A stretch of 15,931 bases of DNA from Treponema sp. (lineage in GTDB: Bacteria > Spirochaetota > Spirochaetia > Treponematales > Breznakiellaceae), in contig JAIRRR010000298.1 in NCBI GenBank assembly GCA_031255875.1, forward strand, positions 1 through 15,931. Reading direction: 5' to 3'. The notes under the pieces were generated by a model, which made no database searches, was not told where the DNA came from, and saw nothing but the letters and a program-made list of their open reading frames with translations. Position numbers and translations under genes: made by a program. Below, piece after piece: positions 1 through 15,693 of the stretch; position 1 is the stretch's first letter, and each line of letters opens with the position of its first letter.

Positions 1-780
1 TGCGCGGAAAAGCTGGAACGGGGGGAATCCCTTGAAAGCGCGGTCGTCCCCATGCAGGTGGTCGATCTTCCGGTAAGCGCCACGGAAGACCGCGTGGTAG
101 GCACCCTGGACATGGAGCACGCGGTCAAAACCGGGGAGAAGCGTTTTGAAACCGGGATACTCGCCAGGGCGAACCGGAATATCCTCTACGTGGACGAGGT
201 GAACCTCCTGGAGGACCATGTGGTGGACGTGCTCCTCGATTCGGCCGCCATGGGGGTGAACACCGTGGAGCGGGAAGGGGTCTCGTACTCGCATCCCGCC
301 CGGTTTATCCTGGTGGGTACCATGAACCCCGAGGAAGGCGACCTGAGGCCCCAGCTTATCGACCGTTTCGGCCTGTCGGTGACCGTTGCCGGGGAACAAA
401 ACCCGGAAGACCGGATGGCGGTTATGGAGAACAGGCTCAGGTTTGAAAATGACCCCGAGGGGTTTTTCGCCGAATTCGAGGGGGAGCAGGAAAAACTGCG
501 GGGGGAAATCCTCCGGGCCAGGGAGCTTCTGGCTTCCGTTTCCTGCCCCGGGGAAATTCTGAAAAGCATAGTGAATATATGCATCAAGCTTAAAGTTGAC
601 GGGCACCGGGCCGACATAGGGATGCTGAAGACTGCCATGACCCTGGCGGCTTTCCGCGGGCGGCGGGAGGTCCGGCAGGAAGATTTAAGAGAGGCGGCGA
701 AACTGGTATTGCCGCACCGTATGCGCCGCAGGCCCTTTGAGGAAACGGGGTTTGACATAAGCGAGATTGAAGGGCTGTAG
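1..780 (+). CDS. chlI: ChlI/BchI-type AAA+ magnesium/cobalt chelatase subunit I, 5'-truncated by window edge
   Basis: The reading frame is open from base 1, so the gene begins upstream; the first internal ATG (52) lies well inside the domain and is not the start. The visible 259 residues match the ChlI/BchI family: a Val-Asp-Leu-Pro...Ala-Thr-Glu-Asp-Arg-Val segment, Walker [11 protein letters not shown] (bases about 181-210), the VEREG loop, and a sensor/arginine region reading [16 protein letters not shown]. The C-terminal helical lid ends with the [12 protein letters not shown] segment typical of this family. The Walker A loop must lie upstream; family proteins are about 340 residues, so roughly 80-90 residues are missing. 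In the family, this hexameric ATPase pairs with a D subunit and drives metal insertion by the large H/CobN subunit. There is no VWA domain here, so this is a stand-alone I subunit; a second I module is fused to D at about 8006. The gene lies 18 bases before the permease, apparently in the same operon. Confidence 0.93.
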
Positions 781-798
781 GGCAAGGCCGGAGGCCGG

Positions 799-1833
799 AT
801 GGAAAGCGCCGAAGCGGGCAACATAAAAAACACTATACGCCTCCTCTGTTTCGCGGCGCTGGCCACCGGGGTGCTGGCTATATTCCTCCTCAACCTGGGG
901 GTGGGCTCGGCCAGAATCGGCATCCCGGAAGCGGCCCGTATCCTGTTCGGCGGCGCTGCGGAAGCGGACAAGAATTTTATTATCATACAGAAGATACGGC
1001 TGCCCAGGGCGCTCGCGTCCCTGGCCGGGGGCGCGTCTTTGGCAATCGCGGGGCTGCTGCTGCAAACCTACTTTGCCAATCCCATCATCGAACCCTATAT
1101 ACTCGGCGTAACTTCGGGTTCCACCCTCTTTGTGGGGCTCGTGATGCTCGGGGGCGTTACCTTCGGCCAGCCGCGGGTTACCCCCATGTTCCTCTTCGGC
1201 GGCGCTTTCCTGGGGGCCATGCTGGTAATGGCGGTAATACTCTTTGCAGCGGGAAGGGTAAAAAGCATTATCACCCTGCTCATAATCGGCCTTATGGCCG
1301 GGTATGCCTGCGGCGCCGCCAACGGCATACTCAGCGCCTACGCGGAAAGAGAGCGGCTGGCCAGTTTCGCCATGTGGAATATGGGGAGCTTTTCCGGCTT
1401 TACCTGGGATCGGATAAAGCTGATGTACGGGGTGACGGTCCCCATGCTGGGGCTGTCCTTCCTCCTGGCAAAGCCGCTGAACCTCCTCAGCATGGGGGAT
1501 CAGTACGCCCTCAGTATGGGAATCAACGTCAAACTGACCCGTTACGGGATTATTGTTATTTCCAGCGTCCTTGTGGCGGCGACTACCGCCTTTGCCGGCC
1601 CGATTTCCTTTATCGGCCTCGCGGCGCCCCATATCTGCCGCATCCTGTTCCGGACTTCCAATAACAGGCTTCTGATTCCCGCAGCCGTCCTGGGGGGAAG
1701 CCTTTTAAGCGGCTTCTGCGATTTTGTGGCGCGGAACATCGTTTCCCCCATGGAGCTGCCGCTGGGCTCGGTCACCGCCCTTATCGGCGCGCCCCTGGTA
1801 GTTTTTCTACTGGTAAGGAAAGACAAGTTATGA
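799..1833 (+). CDS. FecCD/BtuC-family ABC transporter permease (probable corrinoid importer)
   Basis: This 344-residue, very hydrophobic inner-membrane protein has the length of BtuC/FecCD permeases, which form a homodimer with about ten helices per chain. The first membrane span is at about residues 12-36. The family hallmark GPISFIGLAAPH starts at residue 267, in the region that contacts the ATPase, and is followed by an Arg and the conserved final helices. The start is supported by GGAGG at 790-794, four bases before ATG. It follows chlI by 18 bases and overlaps the ATPase gene by four bases (ATGA), so it is translationally coupled. The family imports iron-siderophores, haem and cobalamin. 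The substrate cannot be read from the permease alone; corrinoid is inferred from the cbiZ and cobN neighbours, and haem is the main alternative. Confidence 0.92.
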   Translation: MESAEAGNIKNTIRLLCFAALATGVLAIFLLNLGVGSARIGIPEAARILFGGAAEADKNFIIIQKIRLPRALASLAGGASLAIAGLLLQTYFANPIIEPYILGVTSGSTLFVGLVMLGGVTFGQPRVTPMFLFGGAFLGAMLVMAVILFAAGRVKSIITLLIIGLMAGYACGAANGILSAYAERERLASFAMWNMGSFSGFTWDRIKLMYGVTVPMLGLSFLLAKPLNLLSMGDQYALSMGINVKLTRYGIIVISSVLVAATTAFAGPISFIGLAAPHICRILFRTSNNRLLIPAAVLGGSLLSGFCDFVARNIVSPMELPLGSVTALIGAPLVVFLLVRKDKL

Positions 1834-3038
1834 ATACGCTGCTGTCCGCGGAAGGCCTGGACTCGGGTTACGGCAAAGCGGCGGTTGTCAGGGGCCTGGA
1901 CCTGGACGCCCTGCGGGGGCAGACTATATGCCTTATCGGCCCGAACGGATCGGGGAAAACCACGGTCCTGAGAACCCTGGCGGGCCTTCTTGCCCCGATA
2001 AAGGGCGCGGTCTACATAGGCGGGCGGGAGATAGGCCGGATAAAGCCCGGCCAAAAGGCGAAACAGATGGCGCTGGTGCTGACGGAAAAGCTCAGCGTAA
2101 ACATGACCACGGCCAGGGAAATCGCCGCCATGGGCCGCGCTCCCCATACGGGCTTCCTGGGCCGCCTCTTGCCCGAAGACCGCCGGATCGTGGATGAGGC
2201 GCTGGAAACCGTCGGCGCCCTCGGCCTCGGGGAGAGGAATTTCGCCAGCCTGAGCGACGGGGAAAAACAAAAAGTGCTTATCGCCCGCGCACTGGCCCAG
2301 GAGCCGGAACTGGTTATCCTGGACGAGCCGACAAGCCATCTGGACCTTAGGCACAAGGTAGAACTGATACAGATACTCGGCCGCCTTGCCCGGGAACGGG
2401 GGATGACGGTAATCATGGCCCTCCACGACATTGACATAGCGGCCAAAAACTGCCAGGCGCTCCTGCTGGTAAAAAACGGGAGGGTGCTTGCCCAGGGCAA
2501 ACCGGAAGATATTATAAACGAAAATACCATCGGGGATCTCTACGATATCGAGGGCGCCTCTTTTGACGCGCTTACCGGGTCTCTGGAAGTCTGTAACGAA
2601 AAAGAGCCGGACGTATTCGCGGCGGCCGGGGCGGGCACGGGCTCGTCAGTATACCGTATCCTGGGCCGCATGGGGTACGGCGTCGCTACGGGGATACTGC
2701 AAGAAAACGATATTGACTACCGGGTGGCTTCTTCCATGCGCCTCCGGGTGATCGGTGAGAAGCCCTTTGAGCCTATAAGCGCCGCCTCCGCCGAACGCGC
2801 CCGGCGGCAGATGGAAAAGGCCAAATTTATCATTGACTGCGGTTTCCCCCTGGGGGAATTCAACCGGATAAACCGCGATCTCCTGGGGGAGGCAGTCGCC
2901 AGAGGCTTCCCGGTTATTTCGCGCAGGGGGGCGGCGGAAGCGGCCGGATTCTGGGGGGCCGCCAAAAACCTATTCCACGCGGCTTCCGCTGCGGAACTCT
3001 GCGGGCGCATCGGCGAGCTTGGCTATCCCCCGGGGTAA
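1830..3038 (+). CDS. BtuD/FepC-family ABC transporter ATPase with C-terminal extension domain
   Basis: The first ~245 residues are a standard iron/B12-class ABC ATPase: Walker A GPNGSGKT at 37-44, signature LSDGE at 141-145, Walker B LVILDEP at 161-167, D-loop SHLD at 169-172 and switch His199 in ALHD. All catalytic residues are present. Residues ~246-402 form an extra domain not needed for transport. It contains a GSSVYRILGRMGYGVATG stretch, then NDIDYRVA, then a segment EKPFEPIS, and a hydrophobic strand FIIDCGFPLGEFN. The pattern of alternating strands and helices suggests a small alpha/beta, possibly nucleotide-binding or regulatory, fold. Similar tails occur in some BtuD-like ATPases, to my recollection, but their role is not established. 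The gene starts inside the permease stop codon (ATGA overlap) and is followed by a 30-base gap before the binding protein. Confidence 0.92.
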   Translation: MNTLLSAEGLDSGYGKAAVVRGLDLDALRGQTICLIGPNGSGKTTVLRTLAGLLAPIKGAVYIGGREIGRIKPGQKAKQMALVLTEKLSVNMTTAREIAAMGRAPHTGFLGRLLPEDRRIVDEALETVGALGLGERNFASLSDGEKQKVLIARALAQEPELVILDEPTSHLDLRHKVELIQILGRLARERGMTVIMALHDIDIAAKNCQALLLVKNGRVLAQGKPEDIINENTIGDLYDIEGASFDALTGSLEVCNEKEPDVFAAAGAGTGSSVYRILGRMGYGVATGILQENDIDYRVASSMRLRVIGEKPFEPISAASAERARRQMEKAKFIIDCGFPLGEFNRINRDLLGEAVARGFPVISRRGAAEAAGFWGAAKNLFHAASAAELCGRIGELGYPPG

Positions 3039-3068
3039 CCCGGATTATACTAACAAAAGGAAACTTGC

Positions 3069-4256
3069 ATGAGGGACGCGACGAAAAGAAAAAAACTGTT
3101 TCTGCCCGGTACCGCGCTTATCGTTATTCTGTTTTTTCCGGGCTGCGGAAAAAACAGCGCGGCCCGGCCCCCTTCGGAAAACGCGGCGGCCGGAAGCGTT
3201 TCAATGCCGGAAACACGTATTAAATACGCGAAAAATTTCGCCATTGAATATCTGCCGGAAGGAGTGAAACTCCTGACGGATTCCAACGGAAACAGGCGGC
3301 TCCTGGTTCCGAGGGGAAGGGACGCGCCCGCCGGTTACGAAGGGGTCCAGGCGATACCCACGCCCGTGAGCAGGGCGCTCTACACCTCCACCCCCCAGGT
3401 CGGCTTTATAGACGCCCTGGGCAAGGCGCAGGGGGACGATTCCCTTTTTGGCAGCGTCGCCGGAGTAACGACCCCCCCCGGAGACTGGACAATCCCCTGG
3501 ATAGAGGAGGGCCTGGAGAAGGGGACAATCGAGTACATCCCCCAGGATCACCGCAGCGCCGCGAACATTGAGTCGGTAGTGTCCCTCTTCCCGGACATTG
3601 TTTTTACCGACGGCCTTACGGAATCACAGGTCCTGCTCCGGGCTATGCTGGACGAAGCGGGGATACCCTATGTAACGGTGACCAACTGGACGGAGCCGGA
3701 CAATACCGCGGGCCTGGAATGGCTCAAATTCTTCGCCGCCTTTTACAACCTTGACAGACTCGCGGACGATCTCTTTGAGGAAAAACTCGCCCGTATAGAG
3801 GATCTGGCCAAAATAACCGCCGGCATACCCGCCGCCGAACGGCCGACGGCGGTGTTCGGCATGGTGTACGACGGCATCGTTTATACCCAGGGGGGGCAGT
3901 CAACCACGGCGCAGGAACTGTACAAGGCCGGCGGCCTGTACGCGTTCCGGGATATTCCGGGGAAAGCCGGGATAAGCCTGGGGATGGAGGAATTTGTAAA
4001 CCTCGCCAAGGACGCGGACGTGCTTATATACACGTCGCTTCCCGCGTACTGCCCGGATAAGAGAGCCCTGCTTGACATCGATCCCCTGCTGGGGGAATTG
4101 AAGGCTTTCAAGGAGGACCGCGTCTTCATTCTTGACAAGGGCTACTACATGAACAGCGCCGGCGCGGACGAAAAATTCCTGGACACGGTTTTTATGCTGC
4201 ACCCTGAATTAATGGGCGGGTATACGCCCAGGAATTACCTTAGGCTCCCGGATTAG
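3069..4256 (+). CDS. Periplasmic (lipoprotein) substrate-binding protein of the importer, PF01497/BtuF-like
   Basis: The 395-residue product begins with a basic stretch (RDATKRKKLF), a hydrophobic segment and a lipobox-like FFPGC, with the acylated Cys at residue 26; this relaxed lipobox suits spirochaetes. After a short polar linker, the protein follows the class III metal-chelate binding fold. An N-lobe includes the RALYTSTPQVGFIDALG segment and the SVVSLFPDIVFTDG strand, a long connecting helix follows (about residues 215-260), and the C-lobe holds the ADVLIYTSLP strand and VFILDKGYY. It should capture the substrate and deliver it to the permease dimer. The aromatic segment DWTIPW could help stack a planar ligand, but this is inference. 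The start is preceded by AAAAGG at 3055-3060. Iron-chelate or haem binding cannot be excluded; the cbiZ context favours corrinoid. Confidence 0.88.
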   Translation: MRDATKRKKLFLPGTALIVILFFPGCGKNSAARPPSENAAAGSVSMPETRIKYAKNFAIEYLPEGVKLLTDSNGNRRLLVPRGRDAPAGYEGVQAIPTPVSRALYTSTPQVGFIDALGKAQGDDSLFGSVAGVTTPPGDWTIPWIEEGLEKGTIEYIPQDHRSAANIESVVSLFPDIVFTDGLTESQVLLRAMLDEAGIPYVTVTNWTEPDNTAGLEWLKFFAAFYNLDRLADDLFEEKLARIEDLAKITAGIPAAERPTAVFGMVYDGIVYTQGGQSTTAQELYKAGGLYAFRDIPGKAGISLGMEEFVNLAKDADVLIYTSLPAYCPDKRALLDIDPLLGELKAFKEDRVFILDKGYYMNSAGADEKFLDTVFMLHPELMGGYTPRNYLRLPD

Positions 4257-4265
4257 GGCGGCCCT

Positions 4266-7200
4266 ATGATACGCAGCGCGGCCCTGCTGTCGGGAAGCGA
4301 GCCTTTCGCCGCATTCAGGCAGGCGGAGGAAATCCTCGCCGAAAAACACAAGGGGGATTTTTCCCTGAGCCTCTGGGAAGCCGAAAGCCTGGGGGAAGGG
4401 GAATCCCTTGAAGACTGCGGGAAAGACATTGAAAAAGCGGATTTTGTTATCATCGTCCTCCACGGGACCGTGGGGGAATGCAAGGGTTTTGACCGCCTGC
4501 TCCCCCTGCTTGCGGATAAAAAACTTTTTTTCCAGTCCGGCATAGACGACGAAAACAGGGAAATGGCCGGGAAGATGAATCTCTTCCCGGATCAGGCGAA
4601 AGCCATACGCGCCTATTACCAAAACGCCGATCCGGAAAGCCTGGCGGATCTTTTCCGCTATGTCGCAGACGCGGTACTCCGCCGGGGGGCATGGAACGCC
4701 CGGCCCCCCCGGAAGCCGAAATGGGACGGCGTTTATGACAAGGGGCCGGCATCTGACGAAGCGGCATGCCTTAGGGGGGCGGAAGAAGCGGCGGCGGCGG
4801 GCAGGCCGGTCATCGGGATACTCTTCCACCGTTACAATTTTTCCCGGCGCAATACGGCTACGGTAGACGCGATGGCGGAAAAACTGCGGGACATGGGCGC
4901 CTACCCCCTCTGCGTTTATTCCCACCTGGCCCCGGATGAGGACGGGGCTTTTGGCGGGGCGGAAGACACGTTCAGGCGCTACTTTCTTAAAGACGGGAAA
5001 CCCCGGATAGGCTGCCTTATCAACCTGTGCAATTTTTCGCTGACCCTGCTCGCCCGGCCCGGCAACGGGAACGCCGGGGAACAAGACAGCCTGCTCTGCC
5101 TTTTGGGAGTCCCCGTGATCCAGGCGATGAGTTCCCCCTTCGGCCTTGAGGAATGGCAGAACGCCTCTGCCGGGATTCCCCCGCAATACTACAGTTCTTC
5201 GGTATTCCACCCTGAATTCGACGGGCAGATCATCAGCTTTTCCGTGTCCTATACCGAAAAAGGCGGGGAAGGGAAAGAGCCTGCCGCGCTGCCGATTGCC
5301 GAACGTGTCGGCAAGCTCTGCCTCCTGGCCGTAAACTGGGCAAGGCTCGCGCTGGTCCCGAATGCGGAAAAACGCGTGGCGATTATCCTCCATAATATGC
5401 CCCCCCGTAACGACAGTATAGGCTGCGCCACGGGGCTGGACACCCCCCGGTCGCTCATGAACATACTGGAAGCCCTCCGCGGGCGGGGCTACCACATGGA
5501 TTATACTTTCCGGGACGGGGAGGAAATTATATCGAAGATTACAGCCGGCCTTACCAACGACACGAGATGGAGCAGCCCGGAAAGGATGCGGGAAAAAAGC
5601 GCGGGCACGGTAAGCGCGGGCCGCTATTGCTCATGGTTCGCGGAATTCCCCTCTGCCGTACAGGAAAAACTCTCCGCCTGCTGGGGGCCGCCCCCGGGGA
5701 ATTTCCTGACCGCCGGGGACGACGTCCTTGTGCCGGGCATTCTCAACGGCAATATCTTCATCGGCCTGCAGCCGGCCAGGGGGCTTGAGGACAAGGCCGA
5801 GGAACTGACGCACTCCCCCGACATAGTCTGCCCGCACCAGTACCTCGCCTTTTACCGCTGGGTATCCCGGGTCTTTGGGGCCTGCGCGCTGATCCACGTG
5901 GGCACGCACGGCACCCTGGAATGGCTGCCGGGCAAGGAAGTGTCCCTGGGCGGATCCTGCTACCCGGACATCGCCGTTGACGCCCTGCCCAATATCTACC
6001 CTTATATTGTCAACAATCCCGGAGAGGGGACCCAGGCGAAGCGCCGCAGCTACTGCGCCCTTGCAGACCACCTGATCCCCTCCATGATCGAAGGGGGGTA
6101 CTACGACGAGCTTTCGGATCTGGACGACATGATGAAGGAGTACTTCCGCTTCAAACAAACCGATCCCCGGCGCGCGGCATCCGCGGGAAGGCGTATATGG
6201 GAATTCGCCCGGAAAAGCCATATTACCGAAGATATCGGCCTTTCCGACACGGATGCCGAAACGGACCTTGACGGCTGCGTCGGCCGTATCCACGCCTGGG
6301 CCGCCCGTATAGCCCGGACCGAGATACGGGACGGGCTTCATATTTTGGGAGAAGCCCCGCAGGGGGAAAGGCTCCGCAACCTTCTCAGGCTTGTCCTGCG
6401 GGTAAAAAACAACGCGGCCCCTTCCCTGCGGGAAGCCCTCTGCGCCGCTGCGGGACTCGATCCGGGCCGCCTTCTTGAAAACCCCGCCGAACTGATGCCC
6501 GGCGGGAAAACCTGCGCCATGATTCTGGAAGATATTGACGCTTTGGGGAAGGATATCCTGCTTAAATGGGAGGGGCGGGGCTATGCTCCGGAAGAGGCGG
6601 GGGATATTATCCGAGAAGCTTTCCCGGACTCCCGCGACAGCAGGCCCCTGCTGCAGTGCCTTGGGTTCGCAAGGGATATTAGAAGGCGGCTTCTGGAAAC
6701 CGGCAGGGAAATCGACTCGCTGGCAAATGCCCTGGAAGGGCGCATGGTTCCCACCGGCCCTTCGGGAAACCCGAGCCGGGGAGGCGCGGCGGCCCTTCCC
6801 ACCGGGAAGAATTTCTATTCCATTGATCCCGCCGCCGTACCTTCCCGAAACGCCTGGGAAACGGGGATTCTGCTGGCGGATCAGCTTCTGGCGCGCTACC
6901 GGAGGGAGGAGGGGCGTTTTCCGGAAAGCGTCGCCATCCTGGTTTACGCCACCGATACCATGCGTACTGCCGGCGACGACATCGCCGAGATACTCTGCCT
7001 CCTGGGTATGCGCCCTCGCTGGCTGGGCGGTTCCGACCGGGTAATCGGGATCGAGGCGATCCCCCTTTCGGAACTGGGGCGGCCCCGTATCGACGTTACC
7101 CTGCGGATAACCGGCCTCTTCCGGGACACCTTCCCCAACCTCATCGAGCGGATCGAGGACGCCGTTCTGCTGGCCGCCTCCCTGGAGGAGCCTCCCGGGG

Positions 7201-8009
7201 AAAATTATGTAAAAAAGCATATTGACGATGAGGCGGCGGAACTTGTCACGGGCGGGGCGGAAAAAGAAGAGGCGTTCAGGCGGGCTTCCCTGCGGGTATT
7301 TGGCGATCCCCCGGGGGTGTACGGTGCCGGGGTGGCGGAACTGGTAGGCTCGAAGAAATGGAAAACCCAGGACGAGCTTGCCGAAGCGTACATGGCCTGG
7401 GGCTGCCACGGGTACGGGAAAAAATTCCACGGGGAAAAACTCTACAGCGATTTTTCGCGCCGCCTCTCAAAAACCGATGTATCGGTAAAAAACGAGCCGG
7501 CCGTGGAAATGGATATGTTCGGCTGCGATGATTACTACAACTACTTCGGCGGCCTGGTTTCCGCAGTCTCCTCCCGCGCCGGGGGCGGAAAGGCGGCGTT
7601 CATTCCCAGCGCCGCCGACCGGGAAAGGCCCGAATTGTTTTCCCTCCGCGAGGAAACGGCCCGGATCATGCGGGCCAGGATATGCAACCCCCGGTGGATC
7701 GCCGGCCTTAAACAGCACGGCTACAAGGGCGCCCAGGACATATCCGAGATGGTAGACATCGTCTTTGGCTGGGACGCCGTCGCGTCGGTTATTGACGGCT
7801 GGATGTACGAAGCGATTGCGGGCCGTTATGTATTTGACACGGAAAACGCCGCCTGGATCAGGGAGCATAACCCCTGGGCCCTGCATAACATAAGCGAACG
7901 CCTTTTGGAAGCGGCAAGCCGGGGCATGTGGGACGCCCCGGAGAAGACGGTAGAAAAACTGCGCGCCGTTTATATGGAAACGGAAGGCTTGATAGAGGAT
8001 TTCAATTGA
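4266..8009 (+). CDS. cobN: CobN-family large chelatase subunit, canonical copy
   Basis: The 1247-residue protein is the right length for CobN/BchH/ChlH. The N-terminal region contains GILFHRYNFSRRNTATVDAM and LGVPVIQAMSS, as in CobN. The central core has CPHQYLAFYRWVSR, then HVGTHGTLEWLPGK at 544-557 with both conserved histidines (544, 548), and the NNPGEGTQAKRR segment. The C-terminal part has CDDYYNYFGGL, NPRWI, HGYKGAQDI, FGWDAVASV and NPWALHNI followed by RLLEA, all CobN signatures. The family binds the tetrapyrrole and metal, while I and D subunits supply ATP-driven motion. With chlI and the chlI-chlD fusion present, a complete three-part complex is encoded here. Cobalt insertion into a corrin precursor is the classical role. 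In an import/salvage locus, metal removal (as reported for the CobN-like haem protein HmuS) or metal exchange is also possible. The gene is 9 bases after the binding-protein gene, with only a weak ribosome site. Confidence 0.93.
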   Translation: MIRSAALLSGSEPFAAFRQAEEILAEKHKGDFSLSLWEAESLGEGESLEDCGKDIEKADFVIIVLHGTVGECKGFDRLLPLLADKKLFFQSGIDDENREMAGKMNLFPDQAKAIRAYYQNADPESLADLFRYVADAVLRRGAWNARPPRKPKWDGVYDKGPASDEAACLRGAEEAAAAGRPVIGILFHRYNFSRRNTATVDAMAEKLRDMGAYPLCVYSHLAPDEDGAFGGAEDTFRRYFLKDGKPRIGCLINLCNFSLTLLARPGNGNAGEQDSLLCLLGVPVIQAMSSPFGLEEWQNASAGIPPQYYSSSVFHPEFDGQIISFSVSYTEKGGEGKEPAALPIAERVGKLCLLAVNWARLALVPNAEKRVAIILHNMPPRNDSIGCATGLDTPRSLMNILEALRGRGYHMDYTFRDGEEIISKITAGLTNDTRWSSPERMREKSAGTVSAGRYCSWFAEFPSAVQEKLSACWGPPPGNFLTAGDDVLVPGILNGNIFIGLQPARGLEDKAEELTHSPDIVCPHQYLAFYRWVSRVFGACALIHVGTHGTLEWLPGKEVSLGGSCYPDIAVDALPNIYPYIVNNPGEGTQAKRRSYCALADHLIPSMIEGGYYDELSDLDDMMKEYFRFKQTDPRRAASAGRRIWEFARKSHITEDIGLSDTDAETDLDGCVGRIHAWAARIARTEIRDGLHILGEAPQGERLRNLLRLVLRVKNNAAPSLREALCAAAGLDPGRLLENPAELMPGGKTCAMILEDIDALGKDILLKWEGRGYAPEEAGDIIREAFPDSRDSRPLLQCLGFARDIRRRLLETGREIDSLANALEGRMVPTGPSGNPSRGGAAALPTGKNFYSIDPAAVPSRNAWETGILLADQLLARYRREEGRFPESVAILVYATDTMRTAGDDIAEILCLLGMRPRWLGGSDRVIGIEAIPLSELGRPRIDVTLRITGLFRDTFPNLIERIEDAVLLAASLEEPPGENYVKKHIDDEAAELVTGGAEKEEAFRRASLRVFGDPPGVYGAGVAELVGSKKWKTQDELAEAYMAWGCHGYGKKFHGEKLYSDFSRRLSKTDVSVKNEPAVEMDMFGCDDYYNYFGGLVSAVSSRAGGGKAAFIPSAADRERPELFSLREETARIMRARICNPRWIAGLKQHGYKGAQDISEMVDIVFGWDAVASVIDGWMYEAIAGRYVFDTENAAWIREHNPWALHNISERLLEAASRGMWDAPEKTVEKLRAVYMETEGLIEDFN

Positions 8010-9922
8010 CGGAAAAGCGCGGGCGGCCCCCGGTTTTCCCCTTTACCGCGGTGCTCGGACAGGAAAAGATAAAAAACGCCCTTATCAGGATCATCATCAA
8101 CCCCCGGATAGGCGGGCTGCTCATCGCCGGGGAAAAGGGGACCGCCAAATCAACCCTGATTCGCGCCACCCGGGCCATTACCGGAGGCAGGCGCATCGTG
8201 GAATGCCCCCTCAATATTACGGAGGACCGCCTGGTCGGGGCCATTGACATAGAGGCGGCGCTGCTGTCGGGCCGGCGCGCCCTTGCCCGGGGGCTGCTCG
8301 AGGAAGCGGACGGAAACATCCTCTATGTGGACGAAGTGAACCTGCTGGCCGACCATATCGTAAACGCCCTGCTCGACGCGGCTTCCGGGGGTATAAACGT
8401 AATTGAGCGTGAGGGGATATCCGCACGCCGCAAGAGCCGCTTTGTCCTGCTGGGCAGCATGAACCCGGAAGAGGGAAAACTCAGGCCGCAATTTCTGGAC
8501 CGTTTCGGCCTTTACACCGAAGCCGAGGGCGAAAAGGAAGCGGAAACCAGGGCGGAGATCGTCAGGCGCTGCCTTGCCTTCGAAGCGGATCCTTCGGGTT
8601 TTGCCGGGCATTTCGCGCCGGAAACCGAAAAACTTTCCAAAAAAATCGCCGCCGCGAAGGCGCTGCTTCCTCAGGTGGAAACCACCCAGAACGCCCTGCG
8701 CCTGGCCGCCCGCCTTTCGTCCGAGGCGAACTGCGCCGGGCACCGGGGGGAACTCGCCCTTATCGAGGCCGCCCGGGCCGGCGCCGCCTTTGACGGACGG
8801 CGTATGGTGAATCTGGAAGATATCCGCGAAGCCGCGGCATACGCCCTGCCCCACCGGGCGAGGGAGGCCTCCCCTCCCCCTCCCGAAATGAGGATACCGG
8901 AAACAGCGGAGGCGGGACAGGAAGACGGCGGGGAATCCGCGCCAAACGAAGCGCCGCAAGACGCGCAGCCGGAGCCGGACGCGGCCCCCCGGGGCAGCCG
9001 CGATGATGAAAAAAATGCCCCACCCCCGGACATGGAAGGCCCTTCCGGCGAGGCCGGGAATCCCGAAGGGGACGACAGCGCCCCGGAGGAAGTCCAAATG
9101 CCGGGGGAGCCTTTCTTTATTAAACAGTGGCAGGAGGACCGGAGTATCCGGGCGAAGAGCGCGGGGACAGGGAAACGGTACCCGGTACGGACCGGACGCC
9201 GCCACGGGCGATACGTAGGGTACCGCCTGCCGGGCCCGGAGGGAGCGCGGGACCTGGCCTTCGACGCTACCCTGCGGGCAGCCGCGCCCTTTCAGGGCAG
9301 GCGCGACAGGGCCGGAACGGCGATCGCCATTACTGCTTCGGACATCCGGGTAAAGATCAGGGAAAAGCGCTGCGGGGGCTGCGTCCTCTTTGTGGTGGAT
9401 GCCAGCGCTTCCATGGGCGCCAACGCCCGCATGGCTGCCGTAAAAGCCGCGATAGTTTCCATGCTGAACGTCTCATATCAAAAACGGGACAAGGTGGGGC
9501 TTATTGTCTTCCGGCGGGACCGGGCGGAGCTGTCTCTGGGATTCACTTCGTCGGTGGAGCTTGCCCGGAAAAAGCTGGAACTACTTCCCACCGGCGGGGC
9601 GACCCCCCTGGCCCGGGGCCTCGAACTGGCCTACGAAGTGATCATGGGCCTGCGGAGCCGGGACCCCGGCATGATCCCCGTCATGGCGCTGGTTTCAGAC
9701 GGCCGGGCAAGCGGACGGCCGGGCCTGGATCATTTTGGGGATGCCCTGGCGGCGGCGGAACGGATAGGCCGGCAGAAAATACAGAGCATCATTCTGGATA
9801 CTGAAAACAGTTTTATCCGTCTGGGCATGTGCGCGAAACTGCGCGAAAAACTCGGCGGCGCCCTCGTCACCATGGAAGAACTGGAGGCGGAGGGTATCGT
9901 AACGGCGGTACGGCGGAAGTAG
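8006..9922 (+). CDS. chlD: Chelatase ChlI-ChlD fusion: AAA+ domain, acidic linker, VWA domain
   Basis: The preferred start is TTG at 8006-8008, overlapping the cobN stop TGA by sharing TTGA, with AGAGGA at 7994-7999 at ideal distance. An upstream ATG at 7928 would add 26 non-family residues inside cobN and is disfavoured. The 638-residue product has an AAA+ domain: Walker A GEKGTAKST at 42-50, Walker B NILYVDE at 104-110, and NPEEGKLRPQFLDRFG. A Pro/Glu/Asp/Gly-rich disordered linker covers about 287-368. The C-terminal von Willebrand A domain has an intact metal site, DASAS at 465-469, with Thr533 and Asp565 completing it. Known ChlD/BchD proteins bridge the I ring to the large subunit. Unlike many ChlD proteins, this AAA+ domain keeps all visible ATP-binding motifs, so it may hydrolyse ATP itself. 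It is coupled to cobN and probably serves both CobN-like proteins. Confidence 0.92.
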   Translation: MTEKRGRPPVFPFTAVLGQEKIKNALIRIIINPRIGGLLIAGEKGTAKSTLIRATRAITGGRRIVECPLNITEDRLVGAIDIEAALLSGRRALARGLLEEADGNILYVDEVNLLADHIVNALLDAASGGINVIEREGISARRKSRFVLLGSMNPEEGKLRPQFLDRFGLYTEAEGEKEAETRAEIVRRCLAFEADPSGFAGHFAPETEKLSKKIAAAKALLPQVETTQNALRLAARLSSEANCAGHRGELALIEAARAGAAFDGRRMVNLEDIREAAAYALPHRAREASPPPPEMRIPETAEAGQEDGGESAPNEAPQDAQPEPDAAPRGSRDDEKNAPPPDMEGPSGEAGNPEGDDSAPEEVQMPGEPFFIKQWQEDRSIRAKSAGTGKRYPVRTGRRHGRYVGYRLPGPEGARDLAFDATLRAAAPFQGRRDRAGTAIAITASDIRVKIREKRCGGCVLFVVDASASMGANARMAAVKAAIVSMLNVSYQKRDKVGLIVFRRDRAELSLGFTSSVELARKKLELLPTGGATPLARGLELAYEVIMGLRSRDPGMIPVMALVSDGRASGRPGLDHFGDALAAAERIGRQKIQSIILDTENSFIRLGMCAKLREKLGGALVTMEELEAEGIVTAVRRK

Positions 9923-9940
9923 TCTTTTATGGAGGCAAAT

Positions 9941-11065
9941 ATGCTGTTATGCACATTGTGTACCGGGGAGGAAGTGCACCGGTACAAAAAATCAATCGTG
10001 GTGAATTTTACCGGCCGCCGCAGGGTTCTCAGCACCGCCCCCCATAACGGGGGGCTCAGGGAGGATCTCAGGGCGGTATTCAACCACGACGCGACAACAG
10101 GCGCGGGCATGGCGGTCACGCTTAAAGCGCCGAGCTACGCCGAACACATGGAGATCCTTTCCCGGGAACTCGGCCTTCCGCCGGGGCAAAGCGCGGGTCT
10201 TGCCACTGCGGCTCAAATGGAAAACGTGTCCATCAAGACGGAAACCTGGGGGGAGCTTTCCGTTACCGCCATAGTCACCGGCGGCGTGGAGGTAAACGGC
10301 GGCCGCGCCGGGGACCCTGCTTCCTGGGACGAGATGGCCGGGAAACCGGCTGAAACGGAAAAACACGGCACCATCAATATTATGGTTTTTTTCAATGCCG
10401 GCCTGACCCCCGGGGCTTTGACCCGCGCCCTGGTAACCTGTACCGAGGCGAAAACCGCTGCCCTCCAGGAACTGGCCGCCCCGAGCAGGTATTCCCGGGG
10501 GCTTGCCACCGGCTCCGGCACCGACGGCAGCATACTTGCCGCCAATATGGATTCGGCGATCCTGCTTACCGATGCGGGAAAGCACAACAAACTGGGAGAG
10601 CTTATCGGACGCTCCGTAACGGCCGCAGTCAAAGAGGCGCTCTTTTTGCAGAGCGGGCTCTGCGCGAAGTCCCAGCACAACGTACTGCGCCGCCTAAGCC
10701 GTTTCGGCATTACCTGCGATTCCCTTTGGGAAAAAGCACGGGGGGAAGAAGCGGAAGGCCTGCGGCGGGCCCGCTTCGCCGCCCTGGCGGAAAAGCTGTC
10801 CTGCCGGGATATGCCCCTGACCTATACGGCGCTGTACGCGCATCTTCTGGACGAGCTTATGTGGGGCCTTATCGGCCCTGCCGAGGCGTTTTGCGCGGGC
10901 GCGGAACTGCTCCGGCTCATGGGCATGCCCGGCGGGGCTTTCCGTGCCGGGGAATTGCCCGCTAATGCCGACAGCTGTATCGATGTTATGACTGCCGCCC
11001 TTGAGGACGGCCTGGCCTTCCTCCTCCGGGAAGAAGAAGCGGCGCAGGAAGGGGTAAAATTATGA
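9941..11065 (+). CDS. cbiZ: CbiZ adenosylcobinamide amidohydrolase with C-terminal extension
   Basis: The start is placed at ATG 9941 because GGAGG (9931-9935) sits five bases upstream; an in-frame ATG at 9929 overlaps that ribosome site. The first ~235 of 374 residues match CbiZ: RRVLSTAPHNGGL at 27-39, FNHD at 47-50, a TGGVEVNGGRAGD segment, HGTINIMV at 142-149, CTEAKTAAL at 167-175, GLATGSGTDG at 187-196 and GKHNKLGELIG at 213-223. In archaea and some bacteria CbiZ cuts the aminopropanol amide of adenosylcobinamide (and of some complete cobamides) to give adenosylcobyric acid, allowing the lower ligand to be rebuilt. Residues ~236-374 are an added mostly helical region with several Cys and a SCRDMPLTYTALYAHLLDEL stretch; its role is unknown. 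This gene is the strongest sign that the cluster handles corrinoids. Its stop overlaps the next start (ATGA). Confidence 0.9.
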   Translation: MLLCTLCTGEEVHRYKKSIVVNFTGRRRVLSTAPHNGGLREDLRAVFNHDATTGAGMAVTLKAPSYAEHMEILSRELGLPPGQSAGLATAAQMENVSIKTETWGELSVTAIVTGGVEVNGGRAGDPASWDEMAGKPAETEKHGTINIMVFFNAGLTPGALTRALVTCTEAKTAALQELAAPSRYSRGLATGSGTDGSILAANMDSAILLTDAGKHNKLGELIGRSVTAAVKEALFLQSGLCAKSQHNVLRRLSRFGITCDSLWEKARGEEAEGLRRARFAALAEKLSCRDMPLTYTALYAHLLDELMWGLIGPAEAFCAGAELLRLMGMPGGAFRAGELPANADSCIDVMTAALEDGLAFLLREEEAAQEGVKL

Positions 11066-14000
11066 ATATAATCTGTATTGACTGCGACGGCGAATACCGA
11101 ATCTGGCGGGAGCTTTTTCCCCAAACGGAAATTACCGTAGAAAGCTACGCGCAAAACTATATCAGGCGGGACGCCATGGAAGGAAAGCCGGCAAAACCCG
11201 GCGCGGAACTTTCCGCGTCCTTCGCCGCAATGGCGGGGGAATCGCGCACGGCTATCCTGTTCCGCCATCATACCATGGACTCCGAAGTGGAAGGGTTCCT
11301 CCGGAATTTGCCCCGGGAGGCGCTTGTCGTCCCCGTGGGGCCGGAGGCTATTCTCCTGGGGGTCTCCACGGTTACCGCCGAACAGCTCGAAAATATCAAC
11401 CGCTACCTTGTCTTCGGGGGGAGCGAAAATGTCCGCAACGCGGGGCTTTATATCAGGCTGCATCTGCTTGAAGATACCCCTCCGGGCGGGGAAAGCGCCG
11501 GAATACCGCCCCCCCGGGAAATGCCCTTTTCGGGCCTTTTCAGCCTTAAAGGCGATCCCTTTAAGGTATACGAAACGCCGGAACAGTACCTTAAAGAAAA
11601 TTACCCCGGCGGGCCGCCGCCTTTGGGTTACGCGGGGATATACCTGTACCGGTATAACTGGGTCCAGGAAGATCTCGAAGTTTTCCGCCTTCTCGCGGCC
11701 GCCCTGGAAAAAGAAGGCGTCGGGGTCATTCCGGTTTTTTCAAGCTCCGATGAAAAGTCCAGGACTTTCCGGGAAATGGTAAAAACTTTTTTTACTATAA
11801 ACGGAAAAGTACAAATCGAGCTGCTCGTTAATTTCCAGGTATTCCCCGTCAGGGCAGAAGAGGGCCGCAGCATAGCCGAACAATCAGTTCTGGAATTCGA
11901 GGCGCTGGGCGTCCCCGTGCTGGCCCCGGTACAGGCCTTCTGCCTTACCCGGAAAGCGTGGCGGGAACGCAATGCGCCCCTTTCCGCCGATATGCCCATG
12001 GCCCTTATCGCTCCCGAAATGTCCGGGATGATTGAGCCGGTCCTGGCCGCCGCTGCCGCCGAAGAGGGCGGCCGCAACGAGCCTGTCCCCGAGCGTATCG
12101 AATTCCTTGCCCGGCGGGCGGCCAGGCTGATTGCCCTGCGGAAAAAGCCGAATTCCGAAAAAAGACTGGCGCTCATGCTGCACAACGCGGTCTGCAACGG
12201 CGCGGAAGCAACAATCGGCTGCGCCTTCGGGCTTGAGCCTTTTGAATCTGCGGTAGAGATACTGCGCCGTTTGAAACGCGAAGGCTATACCACGGAAGAG
12301 ATTCCGCATGACGGCCCGGCGCTTCTTGCGCGGATTATGGAAAAAAAAGCCGTCTCCGATTTTCGCTGGACTGCGGCGGAGGATATCGCCGAAGCCGGGG
12401 GCTGCGTTTACCGCATGCCGGTAAAAGGGGAATACGAAAACTACTACCGGGCGCTGCCGGAAGGACTCAGGGATCAGATGGAAAGAGTCTGGGGGCCGCC
12501 TCCGGGAGAAGGGATGGTTATTGGAGACGACATTATCATTACCGGCCTGCAATTCGGCAATATCACCGTAATGGTGCAGCCCAAGCGCGGATGCTACGGC
12601 GCAAAATGTACCGGCGAGGTCTGCAAGATCCTCCACGATCCCGCCTGCCCTCCCCCGCACCAGTACCTGGCCTCCTATCGGTACATTGAACGCACGCTCA
12701 AGGCCGACGCCTGCGTGGAAATAGGGACCAAGGGGAGCCTGGAACTGCTCCCGGGAAAAACCAACGCGCTTTCAGAACTTTGCTGGCCCCACGCAGTCCT
12801 CGGTTCCCTGCCGGAACTGTACATCTACAACGCCGGAGTCACTACCGAGGCGCTCATCGCCAAGCGGCGCGCCCAGGCGGTAATAATCGATCATCTGCCC
12901 CCGGCCAGCGCCGGGGCCGGCAAAGAATCGCGGCGCCTTTCGGAGCTTATCGCGGCCTATTCCCGGGCAAAGGATCTGGGCAGCGGCCAGGCGGAAACGC
13001 TGGAGCGGGACATCAGCCGCCTTGTTACCGGCATACCCGCCGCCTCGCGGATAATGGAAAGGGCAGAAGATTTCCGCCGGGGGCTTTCAGAAATTTCCGA
13101 TGCCGTAAACCGGGCGGACCGGGGGCAGCAGATACGATCGGCCCATGTATTCGGCAAAATTCCGGACAGGGAAGAAACCGGGCGCTATATCGGGGAAACC
13201 CTCGGCGCGGCCGGTATCCCCGAAGAATCGGCGGAAGGCGCGGCCATGGCGGAAAAAATAAGCTCGGGCCTGCTCCGGGCGGGCGAGGAAATGGATATGC
13301 TGATCCGCGCCCTCTCCGGGGGCTATATCCCCTCCGGGGAAAGCGGCATGCCCGACACCAACGGCGTCGGCATACTCCCCACCGGGCGCAACATGACGGG
13401 GGAGCAGAGCGGCCGCGCGCCCTCCCGAATTGCCTGGGAGCGGGGCAGGGAACTGGCCCGGCAGCTTCTGGATTCCTACCTTGCCGACGAGGGGCGCCTC
13501 CCGGAAAAAGTCGCCATGAACATGATATCGCTTGATATCAGCCGTACCGGGGGCGAGCAGCTTTCGCAGTTCCTGTACCTCCTGGGAATAAGGCCCCTTT
13601 GGGACAGCCAGGGCAAGGTAAGCGGTCTTGAAACAATAACCCTTGCCGAGCTTGGCCGGCCGCGGATCGATGTTACGGTCCGCATATCCGGGGTATTACG
13701 GGATACCTATCCCGAAGCGGTGGAACTTATGGATCAGGCGGCGCTCATTGCGGCGGGCCTGGAGGAACCTGACGCGGATAATTACATCGCCAAGCACGCC
13801 CGCGCCTATGCCGCCTGCGGTCCGAACGCCGGGGAGAGCTGCGGGGAAGATCCGTACCGGAACGCGGCGATCCGCATTTTCGGCGACCCGCCGGGGACTT
13901 ACGGCGCGGGCCTTGACCTGGCCCTTCTGGCAAGCGCGTGGAAGGACGAAAAGGACCTGGCAAAATATTTCGTGCAGAACTCCGCCTTTGCCTACGGGAA

Positions 14001-14697
14001 AAACCTGGAGGGCAGGAAAAGCATCCGCGAATTTATTCTGAATGTACGGGAAGCGGATCTTTCCTGCGACGTTACCCAGTCCCGCCGCCAGACCCCTCTG
14101 TCCTGTGATTTCAGCACCCAGATCCAGGGCGGGTTCCGCCTGGCGGCAAAATACTACGGCGGAAAAAACATACGCCAGTACCAGGCAAAAAGCGAAAGGA
14201 AAGAACCGGTAAAAACAGAATCCCTGCGGGCCGCGATTAACAGCGCCCTGGAAGACACCCTTTTAAACGAATTCTGGAAAGACAGCGCTATGGAACGGGG
14301 GTACAGCGGCGCGGCGGAGATAATGATGCTGACCCAAAGCGCGTTTTCCGCGCAGTGCGTCTGCGGCTGTTTTGACAGCAGCGTCCTTGACGCCCTTGCC
14401 GAATTTTACCTCAACGACGAGTTTACGCGGAACTGGCTTATGGAAAACAACCGCTTTGCCGCCGAAGAAATGGCGCGCCGCCTTTTGGAACTCAATTCCA
14501 GAGGCAAGTGGGACGGGGACGCGCGGGTGCTGGAAAAACTAAAAACAAATTATCTTGCCATAGAAGGGAACATCGAAGGGGGGATAGAAAGCAAAGGCGC
14601 CATACAGGGAGGCGCCGTTGAGATTATCAACGATGAGAATATCCCCCTCTGGCGGGAGCAGCTTGCCGGGATCGAAGACGCGCTGTCGTCAATATAA
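11062..14697 (+). CDS. Diverged CobN-family protein lacking the active-site histidine pair and rich in cysteine clusters
   Basis: The 1211-residue protein is CobN-family along its length: YAGIYLYRYNWVQEDLEVF, LGVPVLAPVQAF, a WGPPPGEG segment, PPPHQYLASYRYIE, LPGK at 563-566, and AKRRAQAVIIDHLPP. However, the position of HVGTHG in the upstream copy reads EIGTKG (553-558), so both histidines are replaced (by Glu553 and Lys557), while the later Glu of the motif (561) is kept. The NPGEG loop is replaced by NAGVTTE. The C-terminal marks HGYKGA, GWDA and NPWAL have changed to RGYSGA, CVCGC and NRFAA. Cysteines 511, 516, 521 and 529 form CX4CX4CX7C just before the core motif, and 1099, 1101 and 1103 form a second group. 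The start overlaps the cbiZ stop (ATGA) after GGAAGGGG. It may be an accessory or scaffold partner, a substrate carrier, or a chelatase for another metal. It is intact, so probably not a decaying copy. Confidence 0.88.
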   Translation: MNIICIDCDGEYRIWRELFPQTEITVESYAQNYIRRDAMEGKPAKPGAELSASFAAMAGESRTAILFRHHTMDSEVEGFLRNLPREALVVPVGPEAILLGVSTVTAEQLENINRYLVFGGSENVRNAGLYIRLHLLEDTPPGGESAGIPPPREMPFSGLFSLKGDPFKVYETPEQYLKENYPGGPPPLGYAGIYLYRYNWVQEDLEVFRLLAAALEKEGVGVIPVFSSSDEKSRTFREMVKTFFTINGKVQIELLVNFQVFPVRAEEGRSIAEQSVLEFEALGVPVLAPVQAFCLTRKAWRERNAPLSADMPMALIAPEMSGMIEPVLAAAAAEEGGRNEPVPERIEFLARRAARLIALRKKPNSEKRLALMLHNAVCNGAEATIGCAFGLEPFESAVEILRRLKREGYTTEEIPHDGPALLARIMEKKAVSDFRWTAAEDIAEAGGCVYRMPVKGEYENYYRALPEGLRDQMERVWGPPPGEGMVIGDDIIITGLQFGNITVMVQPKRGCYGAKCTGEVCKILHDPACPPPHQYLASYRYIERTLKADACVEIGTKGSLELLPGKTNALSELCWPHAVLGSLPELYIYNAGVTTEALIAKRRAQAVIIDHLPPASAGAGKESRRLSELIAAYSRAKDLGSGQAETLERDISRLVTGIPAASRIMERAEDFRRGLSEISDAVNRADRGQQIRSAHVFGKIPDREETGRYIGETLGAAGIPEESAEGAAMAEKISSGLLRAGEEMDMLIRALSGGYIPSGESGMPDTNGVGILPTGRNMTGEQSGRAPSRIAWERGRELARQLLDSYLADEGRLPEKVAMNMISLDISRTGGEQLSQFLYLLGIRPLWDSQGKVSGLETITLAELGRPRIDVTVRISGVLRDTYPEAVELMDQAALIAAGLEEPDADNYIAKHARAYAACGPNAGESCGEDPYRNAAIRIFGDPPGTYGAGLDLALLASAWKDEKDLAKYFVQNSAFAYGKNLEGRKSIREFILNVREADLSCDVTQSRRQTPLSCDFSTQIQGGFRLAAKYYGGKNIRQYQAKSERKEPVKTESLRAAINSALEDTLLNEFWKDSAMERGYSGAAEIMMLTQSAFSAQCVCGCFDSSVLDALAEFYLNDEFTRNWLMENNRFAAEEMARRLLELNSRGKWDGDARVLEKLKTNYLAIEGNIEGGIESKGAIQGGAVEIINDENIPLWREQLAGIEDALSSI

Positions 14698-14712: not shown

Positions 14713-15693
14713 ATGAAAAAACTTATGAATATTACAACCAGCCATTTCGACATTCCCCGGTACAGGGACAACCTGGATCTAAAACATTTTTACCGCAGCT
14801 TCGGACTGGACGGCGTCGAGGTAATGGAAGGGTCCGTAGAATCCCAGGATATTATCCGCGAAGACGATGTGACGGGAGTGCATCTCGCTTTCTTTCCCTG
14901 CTGGGTCCGCCTTTGGCGCGGGGACGAGGCGGCAATCCTCGACGAATACGGCAGCTGGGATGTCTGCCGCGAAGTGTACGGCGGGGACACCGGGGAGACC
15001 CTCCTTAAAGCCTACGGAAAGAACCTGTCCTTTGCCGCCGGGCTTTTGCCGGAATACCTGGTGTTTCATATTTCCGACGCTTCGACCCGGGAGAGCGTGC
15101 ATCGCCGCTACCGTTATACCGACGAGGAGGTCATTGATGCCTCCGTCGAGCTGGTAAACCGTATCACGCCGGAAATACCGGGAGGGGCGCTTCTGCTCTT
15201 TGAAAACCTCTGGTGGCCCGGGCTGCGCCTTACCCGGCCGGATCTGACATTCCGACTCCTCCGGGGGATAGAATATAAAAACACCGGCGTCATGTTCGAC
15301 ATAGGGCATCTCCTCCACACAAACACCGCCCTCAAAACCCTTGACAAGGCGCTGGCCTACGTCCACAGCATACTGGATCTTTACGGCGACATTTCCTTTA
15401 TAAAAGGCGTCCATCTGCATCAAAGCCTGAGCGGAGAATATGTTGAAGGCATTCTCAAAAACCCGTTCCCCGTCGAGGAAGATTATTTCAGGCGCTTCGG
15501 GGACATCCATCAGCATATCTACCGGATCGACAGCCACGAGCCGTTCCTGCACCCCGGCGTCGCCGGCCTTATCGACAGAATCAGCCCCGAATACCTGGTG
15601 CTGGAACTTATATCCAAAACCAGGGAAGAACACGCGGAAAGCCTCGCGCGGCAGATGGAATACCTCCGGGGCCAGTGTCCGGAACACGGTTGA
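14713..15693 (+). CDS. Sugar-phosphate isomerase / AP-endonuclease-2-like TIM-barrel protein
   Basis: This 326-residue cytosolic protein has the alternating strand-helix rhythm of the xylose-isomerase-like TIM barrel superfamily (PF01261). Candidate metal and catalytic residues at strand ends are visible: His119 in VFHIS, Glu164 in LLFENLWW, Asp196 and His199 in MFDIGH, His234/His236 in KGVHLHQS, His275 in IDSHEPF and Glu298 in LVLELIS. This fits a divalent-metal site (Glu, Asp, His, Glu). Family members include sugar isomerases/epimerases, endonuclease IV and inosose dehydratases, so the reaction cannot be named. It begins 15 bases after the diverged cobN, in the same direction, and is the last gene before the hairpin cluster. 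It may act on a nucleotide-loop or tetrapyrrole product, or bind metal released by the chelatase; both are guesses. The start has a modest GGAAGAAG upstream. Confidence 0.7.
   Translation: MKKLMNITTSHFDIPRYRDNLDLKHFYRSFGLDGVEVMEGSVESQDIIREDDVTGVHLAFFPCWVRLWRGDEAAILDEYGSWDVCREVYGGDTGETLLKAYGKNLSFAAGLLPEYLVFHISDASTRESVHRRYRYTDEEVIDASVELVNRITPEIPGGALLLFENLWWPGLRLTRPDLTFRLLRGIEYKNTGVMFDIGHLLHTNTALKTLDKALAYVHSILDLYGDISFIKGVHLHQSLSGEYVEGILKNPFPVEEDYFRRFGDIHQHIYRIDSHEPFLHPGVAGLIDRISPEYLVLELISKTREEHAESLARQMEYLRGQCPEHG

Follow-up and report, generated by a model that had tools for sequence, protein, structure and literature searches.

A putative corrinoid salvage locus in Treponema sp. pairs a canonical CobN with a four-cysteine CobN lacking the superfamily histidine

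Gene content of the locus

The locus described here lies on contig JAIRRR010000298.1 of Treponema sp., which makes up the entire window (the 15,931 nucleotides under study, to which positions refer unless another contig or locus is named) and belongs to a genome that is 76% complete and assembled in 319 contigs (G000, where the contig is C246). It carries a run of nine genes, all called on the + strand: the 3' part of chlI, btuC, btuD, btuF, cobN-A, chlID, cbiZ, cobN-B and a gene encoding a TIM-barrel protein. The intergenic gaps in this run are of 31 bases or less, and several open reading frames (ORFs) overlap. The original prediction, made from the sequence alone, had described an importer, CbiZ, ChlI, a ChlI-ChlD fusion and two CobN proteins in one tight run, and this description holds. 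It overlooked that the two CobN copies, judged by their residues, are not equivalent. Gene sets of this kind are known; the new part is the pairing, in what we take to be corrinoid salvage loci, of a canonical CobN with a four-Cys CobN devoid of the superfamily His. CobN-like proteins that lack a matching pathway are presented as an open problem in PMC12583661, their functions being unclear and some species having several paralogues.

Two CobN proteins of different classes

CobN-A (4266..8009) is a canonical large subunit of class I chelatases: it matches PF02514, exceeds the cut-off of the CobN model TIGR02257 (882.5 bits for a cut-off of 822.05) and has the motif HxG(T/A)HG intact, as IHVGTHGTL. 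CobN-B (11062..14697) also matches PF02514 (1e-264), does not reach the TIGR02257 cut-off (556.6 bits) and has ExGTKG in place of HxGTHG, i.e., Glu553 and Lys557 (codons within 12718..12732) where the superfamily has two His. The superfamily His is reported to be strictly conserved, and its mutation in HmuS (H538A) to abolish dechelation (PMC12583661). Using P0057, a relative of HmuS that aligns end to end with the chain of HmuS, we placed the column of HmuS His538 at His548 of CobN-A, the predicted active-site His (codon 5907..5909), and at Lys557 of CobN-B. The latter also carries the stretch Cys511-x4-Cys516-x4-Cys521 (12592..12624), which aligns with Loop I of HmuS, and a fourth diagnostic Cys, Cys378 (12193..12195), which is present or absent together with the other three. 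Cys521 aligns with HmuS Phe502, a residue of the loop described as gating the cleft (PMC12583661).

To quantify these patterns, we used queries from both classes and retained lists of 120 of 348 and 120 of 1099 matches, each query sampling its own class best; sequences shorter than 1000 aa were dropped and rows at least 90% identical were collapsed (from 406 to 329). In an earlier count the four-Cys class had been defined by the Cys511-516-521 pattern, leaving only Cys378 as independent, and the recount with queries from both classes is the one given here. Among the matches listed, 223 of the 406 sequences have Cys378, Cys511, Cys516 and Cys521 together, 183 have none of them, and there are no intermediates; the same is true after the collapse (175 four-Cys and 154 zero-Cys among 329 sequences). 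The His is kept in all 154 zero-Cys sequences and in 124 of the 175 four-Cys ones, so that the 51 sequences missing it are all of the four-Cys class. Their residue at this position is D, E, K, G, A, L or F, differing between subclades. With a methanogen query, all 119 four-Cys sequences among the matches listed (120 of 1099) keep the His. On these residue patterns, the sampled CobN-like proteins fall into two classes, one with four Cys and one with none, a division that is new, and some members of the four-Cys class can do without the His. Among the papers listed by searches on CobN in salvage and on paired, pseudo- or Fe-S CobN, titles and abstract openings contained no description of a His-less or four-Cys CobN.

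The loss of the His left the rest of the protein largely intact. There are 61 columns in which at least 97% of the 278 His-bearing rows agree; 57 of these columns are spared in the His-less rows, and the only ones broken in more than 20% of the latter are 377, 553, 557 and 115 (the last mostly by N-terminal gaps). The column of HmuS His1209, on the opposite wall of the cleft, holds Asp in 160 of 183 zero-Cys sequences, Cys in 138 of 167 four-Cys sequences with the His and Phe in 46 of 56 His-less ones, with the reservation that this loop may be misaligned. In a tree of 110 rows made with FastTree, the pattern of presence and absence of the His takes 6 changes, at least 5 of them forced by well-supported branches, and these may include regains. 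Read on this tree, the loss of the His arose more than once and without decay of the rest of the protein. We also compared the locus with its counterpart in Treponema sp. Cc175_bin63 (L137): the ratio of nonsynonymous to synonymous substitution rates (dN/dS) in this one genome pair is about 0.14-0.16 for CobN-B and 0.13-0.14 for CobN-A (dN about 0.16, dS about 1.0-1.1). CobN-B is under purifying selection and, because the constraint is the same as on CobN-A, it is a working protein and no relic.

With the His lost and the four Cys present, CobN-B has probably ceased to insert metal by the usual route. One could alternatively suppose that it is a full chelatase for another metal or ring, with Lys, Asp or Glu taking the place of the His, and that both CobN proteins share one motor of I and D subunits. 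The purifying selection and the 57 of 61 conserved columns would fit such an enzyme, as would the case of green sulfur bacteria, in which a single I and a single D subunit are described alongside several large subunits (PMC8620254). The residue that replaces the His varies, however, from one subclade to another (K, D, E, G, A, L, F), and Gly or Ala cannot ligate a metal, which makes this alternative doubtful in our eyes. The residues to be singled out for mutation are His548 in CobN-A and Lys557, Cys378, Cys511, Cys516 and Cys521 in CobN-B.

A recurrent gene set

The association of these genes extends well beyond Treponema. We surveyed 69 named loci anchored on proteins similar to CobN-B. They were retrieved by means of two peptide patterns, and one of these patterns contains Cys516 and Cys521. 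In 25 of the loci an A-type CobN accompanies the Cys-type copy, leaving 44 with the Cys type only (for these counts L088 was dropped, its CobN being shorter than 700 aa, and L017 was added). The loci with two CobN encode ChlID in 22 cases, CbiZ in 16 and the TIM-barrel protein in 9; the corresponding figures for the 44 others are 27, 5 and 0. The gene set of the window exceeds chance co-occurrence and is a recurrent module, found in its two-CobN form in Spirochaetota, Bacillota, Actinomycetota, Chlorobiota and Thermoplasmatota. The surveyed taxa carrying this form are, we presume, anaerobes, and the pattern bears on whether anaerobes metallate or re-metallate the corrinoids that they salvage. 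Cobalamin riboswitches occur in or near 10 of the 28 loci scanned, a proportion for which no chance level was computed. The original prediction had proposed a survey of this gene set with and without ring-synthesis genes: the set does recur (two CobN in 25 of 69), and CbiD is present in 30 of the 34 genomes searched (33 with such loci and our own; G117, the closest Treponema relative, is among the four without). CbiZ was a poor probe for the survey: it found no relative when used against genome contigs and, as a protein query, matched in 2 of 97 relatives, a number that counts our own genome. The survey was based on aligned relatives of CobN-B instead.

Counted by locus, the His is lost in 17 of the 28 loci with a full or partial partner CobN (25 full partners and fragments in L033, L039 and L054) vs 6 of the 41 without (p 9e-5). 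The search for a second CobN elsewhere in the genome covered 25 loci. The six His-less loci without a full or partial partner (L048, L050, L061, L066, L069 and L093) all lie in genomes that encode a His-bearing zero-Cys CobN elsewhere, which in the genome of L066 has one in-frame stop (L123). In Lutispora thermophila (L054; G132:C15 52263-52844), only fragments of the partner CobN are found near an intact His-less CobN.

Corrin synthesis elsewhere in the genome

The absence of corrin-ring genes noted in the original prediction is true of the contig; most ring genes are nevertheless present elsewhere in the genome. A search of the genome for tetrapyrrole methylases led to contig C293 (L015), which encodes CbiH-CbiJ, CbiE-CbiT, CbiA, CbiD and the start of CbiF, while contig C104 (L016) encodes the end of CbiF, CbiG, a CobD-like aminotransferase, a CbiP-type amidotransferase, BtuR and CbiC. 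The 3' ends of the two contigs have 119 identical bases in common, within cbiF, and for this reason their corrin genes very likely form one operon divided only by the assembly. CbiK adjoins this operon (C293:8813-9574; ORF at L015 8807-9724, - strand), with an AdoCbl-II riboswitch directly upstream (L015 9808-9887, - strand). Two more cobalamin riboswitches lie on the CbiK contig (966-1139 and 2394-2561, - strand), which also carries an additional set of BtuC, BtuF and TonB-like genes; CobS is encoded on C92. The window and both contigs with corrin genes have a G+C content of about 60%, and composition thus gives no sign of a misplaced contig.

The combination of CbiK, CbiD and CbiG is, by gene content, that of the oxygen-independent route, with early insertion of cobalt. 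Since cobalt would then enter early, the chelatase of the window very likely serves another purpose, and it is unlikely, whether the pathway is complete or incomplete, to insert the cobalt during ring synthesis. CobN-A does exceed the cut-off of the CobN equivalog model, as expected if the chelatase inserted cobalt in a late-insertion pathway of de novo synthesis. The chelatase shares with the cobaltochelatases CobNST and CobN-ChlI-ChlD the composition of large subunit, AAA+ subunit and AAA+-vWA subunit. It differs from them in being encoded next to importer and CbiZ genes while the genome also has CbiK, and in that its second large subunit has no His. Among 117 genomes of relatives (own included), a CobN match was found in 5, CbiD in 13 and CbiK in 15 (14 over the cut-off), CbiK being present in 12 of the 13 genomes with CbiD. 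Ten of these 13 have no CobN match, although several of them are incomplete, and in G001, a genome of the same genus, CbiD and CbiK occur without any CobN match. A late-insertion pathway, which would have spoken against the original prediction, was not found in the genome. With CbiK, CbiD and CbiG present we rejected this explanation, to which we attach next to no probability. The proposal that the chelatase is tied to imported corrinoids and stands apart from ring synthesis is supported.

Proposed function in corrinoid uptake and salvage

The genes around the two CobN proteins point to imported corrinoids. The permease of the FecCD family (btuC type, 799..1833; PF01032, 1.6e-75) has BtuC as its top NCBIfam model, below the cut-off of that model, and the ATPase (btuD type, 1830..3038; PF00005), which has a C-terminal extension, has as its top NCBIfam model the corrinoid ABC transporter ATPase PRK09536 (residues 5-346, below cut-off). 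The substrate-binding protein (btuF type, 3069..4256; PF01497, 8e-15) is probably a lipoprotein, with a hydrophobic N-terminal stretch followed by Cys26. The cbiZ gene (9929..11065) encodes a member of the adenosylcobinamide amidohydrolase family (PF01955, 7e-59, residues 27-234) with a C-terminal extension; the roughly 145 residues after the CbiZ domain (window 10630-11065) have no Pfam match. The chelatase has its AAA+ subunit in chlI (1..780; AAA_lid_2, Mg_chelatase, TIGR02442/TIGR02030, below the NCBIfam cut-offs as a fragment) and a fusion of AAA+ and vWA domains in chlID (ORF 7928..9922, the real start probably being near 8009; AAA_5, AAA_lid_2, VWA_2 and a DASAS motif; 633 bits for TIGR02442, below the cut-off of 779). 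All of I, D and CobN are thus encoded, as the original prediction stated in calling the chelatase complete, but chlI is cut at the contig end, its 5' end lying off the contig. It is whole in the operon of Treponema sp. Cc175_bin63 (L028/L137), the closest comparable one, which has the same gene order and CobN proteins 76-77% identical to those of the window. In L137, btuC is preceded by a TonB-dependent receptor and the complete chlI (346 aa, L137 7442-8482).

The closest described parallel is operon-2 of Dehalobacter restrictus, whose proteins are reported to be on average 46-fold more abundant in corrinoid starvation (PMC4285132). According to the same source, it shares with its Acetobacterium counterpart an ABC importer, CbiZ, CobN and subunits of the Mg-chelatase type, in a host that also has corrin genes. 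The arrangement that marks operon-2, with BtuFCD, CbiZ, CobN and chelatase I and D subunits in one run, is found in the window. The Dehalobacter version is described as having a cobalamin riboswitch, CbiZ in two copies and a single gene under the name CobN, although others of the family may be named as Mg-chelatase subunits (PMC4285132). The Acetobacterium loci L044, L045, L047 and L049 have, like the window, at least two CobN each, with Ala or Gly at the His position of CobN-B where the window has Lys. Because of the recurrence of the module, the riboswitches and the parallel with operon-2, we assign the locus to corrinoid salvage. CobN-like proteins outside ring synthesis have likewise been proposed to act in salvage under the name BtuS, with two copies in Methanosarcina barkeri, those of Bacteroides differing in being exported and attached to the membrane (PMC6460266). 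In green sulfur bacteria, chelatases beside B12 transport genes have been discussed earlier in terms of cobalt insertion into imported cobalamin (PMC8620254).

We therefore propose, with about even confidence, that the locus is a module of corrinoid uptake and salvage in which CobN-A would be the working chelatase and CobN-B a pseudo-chelatase that holds corrinoids and bears a metal or Fe-S site on its four Cys. BtuF and BtuCD, with the TonB-dependent receptor in the relative, would import corrinoids, and CbiZ would cleave off the nucleotide loop or the aminopropanol arm, allowing the ring to rejoin assembly at cobyric acid. CobN-A, ChlI and ChlID would form an ATP-driven class I chelatase that places cobalt into rings lacking it or holding the wrong metal. 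Rings of the former kind are natural, being made without cobalt by some purple sulfur bacteria (PMC6771967). CobN-B would keep the fold that binds the ring, its active-site His pair being gone and its four Cys lying in or near the loop that gates the cleft. Beside CobN-A, it may hold or pass on the corrinoid, perhaps in a redox role, with a metal or an Fe-S cluster on the four Cys. A bolder version, which we consider a speculative outside chance, is that the four-Cys class as a whole bears an Fe-S or metal centre near the cleft and that its His-less member, in loci such as the present one, joins the canonical CobN in a two-headed chelatase driven by one ChlI/ChlID motor. CobN-B would reduce and hold the salvaged corrinoid, and insertion or exchange of the metal would fall to CobN-A.

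Several observations weigh against the proposed salvage function or against the part given to CobN-B. Known CbiZ substrates contain cobalt. No riboswitch was found in the window, whose 5' end is cut, nor in the first 13.8 kb of the L137 contig, so that control by B12 is at most putative in the Treponema version. The His is kept in the Cys-type copy of 9 of the 25 two-CobN loci and, among the nearer relatives of CobN-B, in L065, P0012, P0015 and P0036. A link between the loss of the His and the presence of a partner CobN in the locus was rejected, as on the tree it comes down to 5 to 7 independent pairs and is not significant. Ring synthesis itself shows gaps: CbiL gave only weak matches, which are to other methylases, in G000 (76% complete), G001 (same genus, 90% complete), G117 and G118, and the five methylase matches of G000 (CbiH, CbiE, two pieces of CbiF and a 16S rRNA methylase) include no SUMT. 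Because neither was found, de novo synthesis may be incomplete and the cell may depend on salvage. In the complete genomes G059 and G115, a near-cut-off CbiL lies beside CbiK. CbiL is either lost, divergent or unassembled in G000, G001, G117 and G118, three of which (G000, G001 and G118) do have CbiD or other genes of the ring pathway.

The chelatase could also run in reverse or swap metals, removing cobalt from imported corrinoids, as the original prediction suggested from the example of HmuS. The importer and CbiZ do accompany a chelatase that is superfluous for synthesis with early insertion, the metal site of CobN-B is rewritten and its four nearby Cys could accept a metal, and HmuS shows that the fold can dechelate (PMC12583661). 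Metal removal may thus be proposed by analogy. The analogy with HmuS is not supported: dechelation by HmuS is described as independent of ATP and HmuS itself as predicted to be anchored in the membrane (PMC12583661), while the locus encodes I and D motor subunits, typical of insertion, and no anchor was seen. HmuS also requires the very His that CobN-B lacks, and cobalt corrins are reported to resist the loss of cobalt without destruction of the ring (PMC6771967). We consider removal improbable for these reasons. HmuS belongs to the same large-subunit superfamily as the two CobN proteins, which differ from it in having no anchor and no Met-rich insertion, in the presence of I and D subunits and, for CobN-B, in the lack of an equivalent of His538. 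The best 19-residue hydropathy is 1.67 in CobN-A and 1.62 in CobN-B, compared with 2.2-3.3 in nine longer homologues (P0048, P0053-P0057, P0059-P0061). The maximum number of Met per 120 residues is 5 in CobN-A and 7 in CobN-B, compared with 21 in the HmuS-like P0057, although P0048, P0054 and P0060 are also low (5, 6 and 7). Membership in the HmuS group was rejected on the absent anchor and the absent insertion.

The same two absences count against haem, or another porphyrin, as the imported substrate from which the chelatase would remove, or into which it would insert, iron or another metal. A cluster of similar content in T. denticola (TDE_0746-0750) has been proposed to act in the uptake of hemin iron (PMC12724145), CobN-like BtuS has been linked to haem iron in Bacteroides (PMC6460266), and the permease scores with siderophore importers too. 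The cluster of T. denticola (PMC12724145), like those of G059 and G115, shares with the window BtuD, BtuC, BtuF, an A-type CobN and chelatase I and D subunits, but the 20 kb read in G059 and G115 contain neither CbiZ nor a second CobN, and these genomes have no further CobN. Here CbiZ lies within the operon, the top family of the ATPase, although below cut-off, is a corrinoid ABC ATPase, the four genes preceding the fuller operon of L137 include no HmuY-type Pfam match, and cobalamin riboswitches accompany related loci (the 10 of 28 given above). A haem substrate, raised in the original prediction as the chief alternative, is very improbable on this evidence, more so than metal removal.

Neighbouring genes and minor features

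The last gene of the run (14713..15693) encodes a protein resembling the TIM barrel of xylose isomerases (PF01261, 9e-6, below cut-off). Searches of the PDB with this protein and with CbiZ returned no match, and scans of the whole contig, which is cut at its 5' end, gave no Rfam family above the gathering score and no tRNA. A second TIM-barrel-like fragment was recognised by eye near cobS in the same genome (L136 2316-2696). Close relatives of CobN-B include those of Spirochaetaceae bacterium (P0002) and Treponema sp. (P0006). In the operon of Treponema sp. Cc175_bin63, btuD and btuF are separated by a radical SAM gene (L137 10743-11756). In G059 and G115, TD-1 RNAs (RF03155) lie between two non-chelatase genes (L019 3698-3821 and L020 3853-3976).

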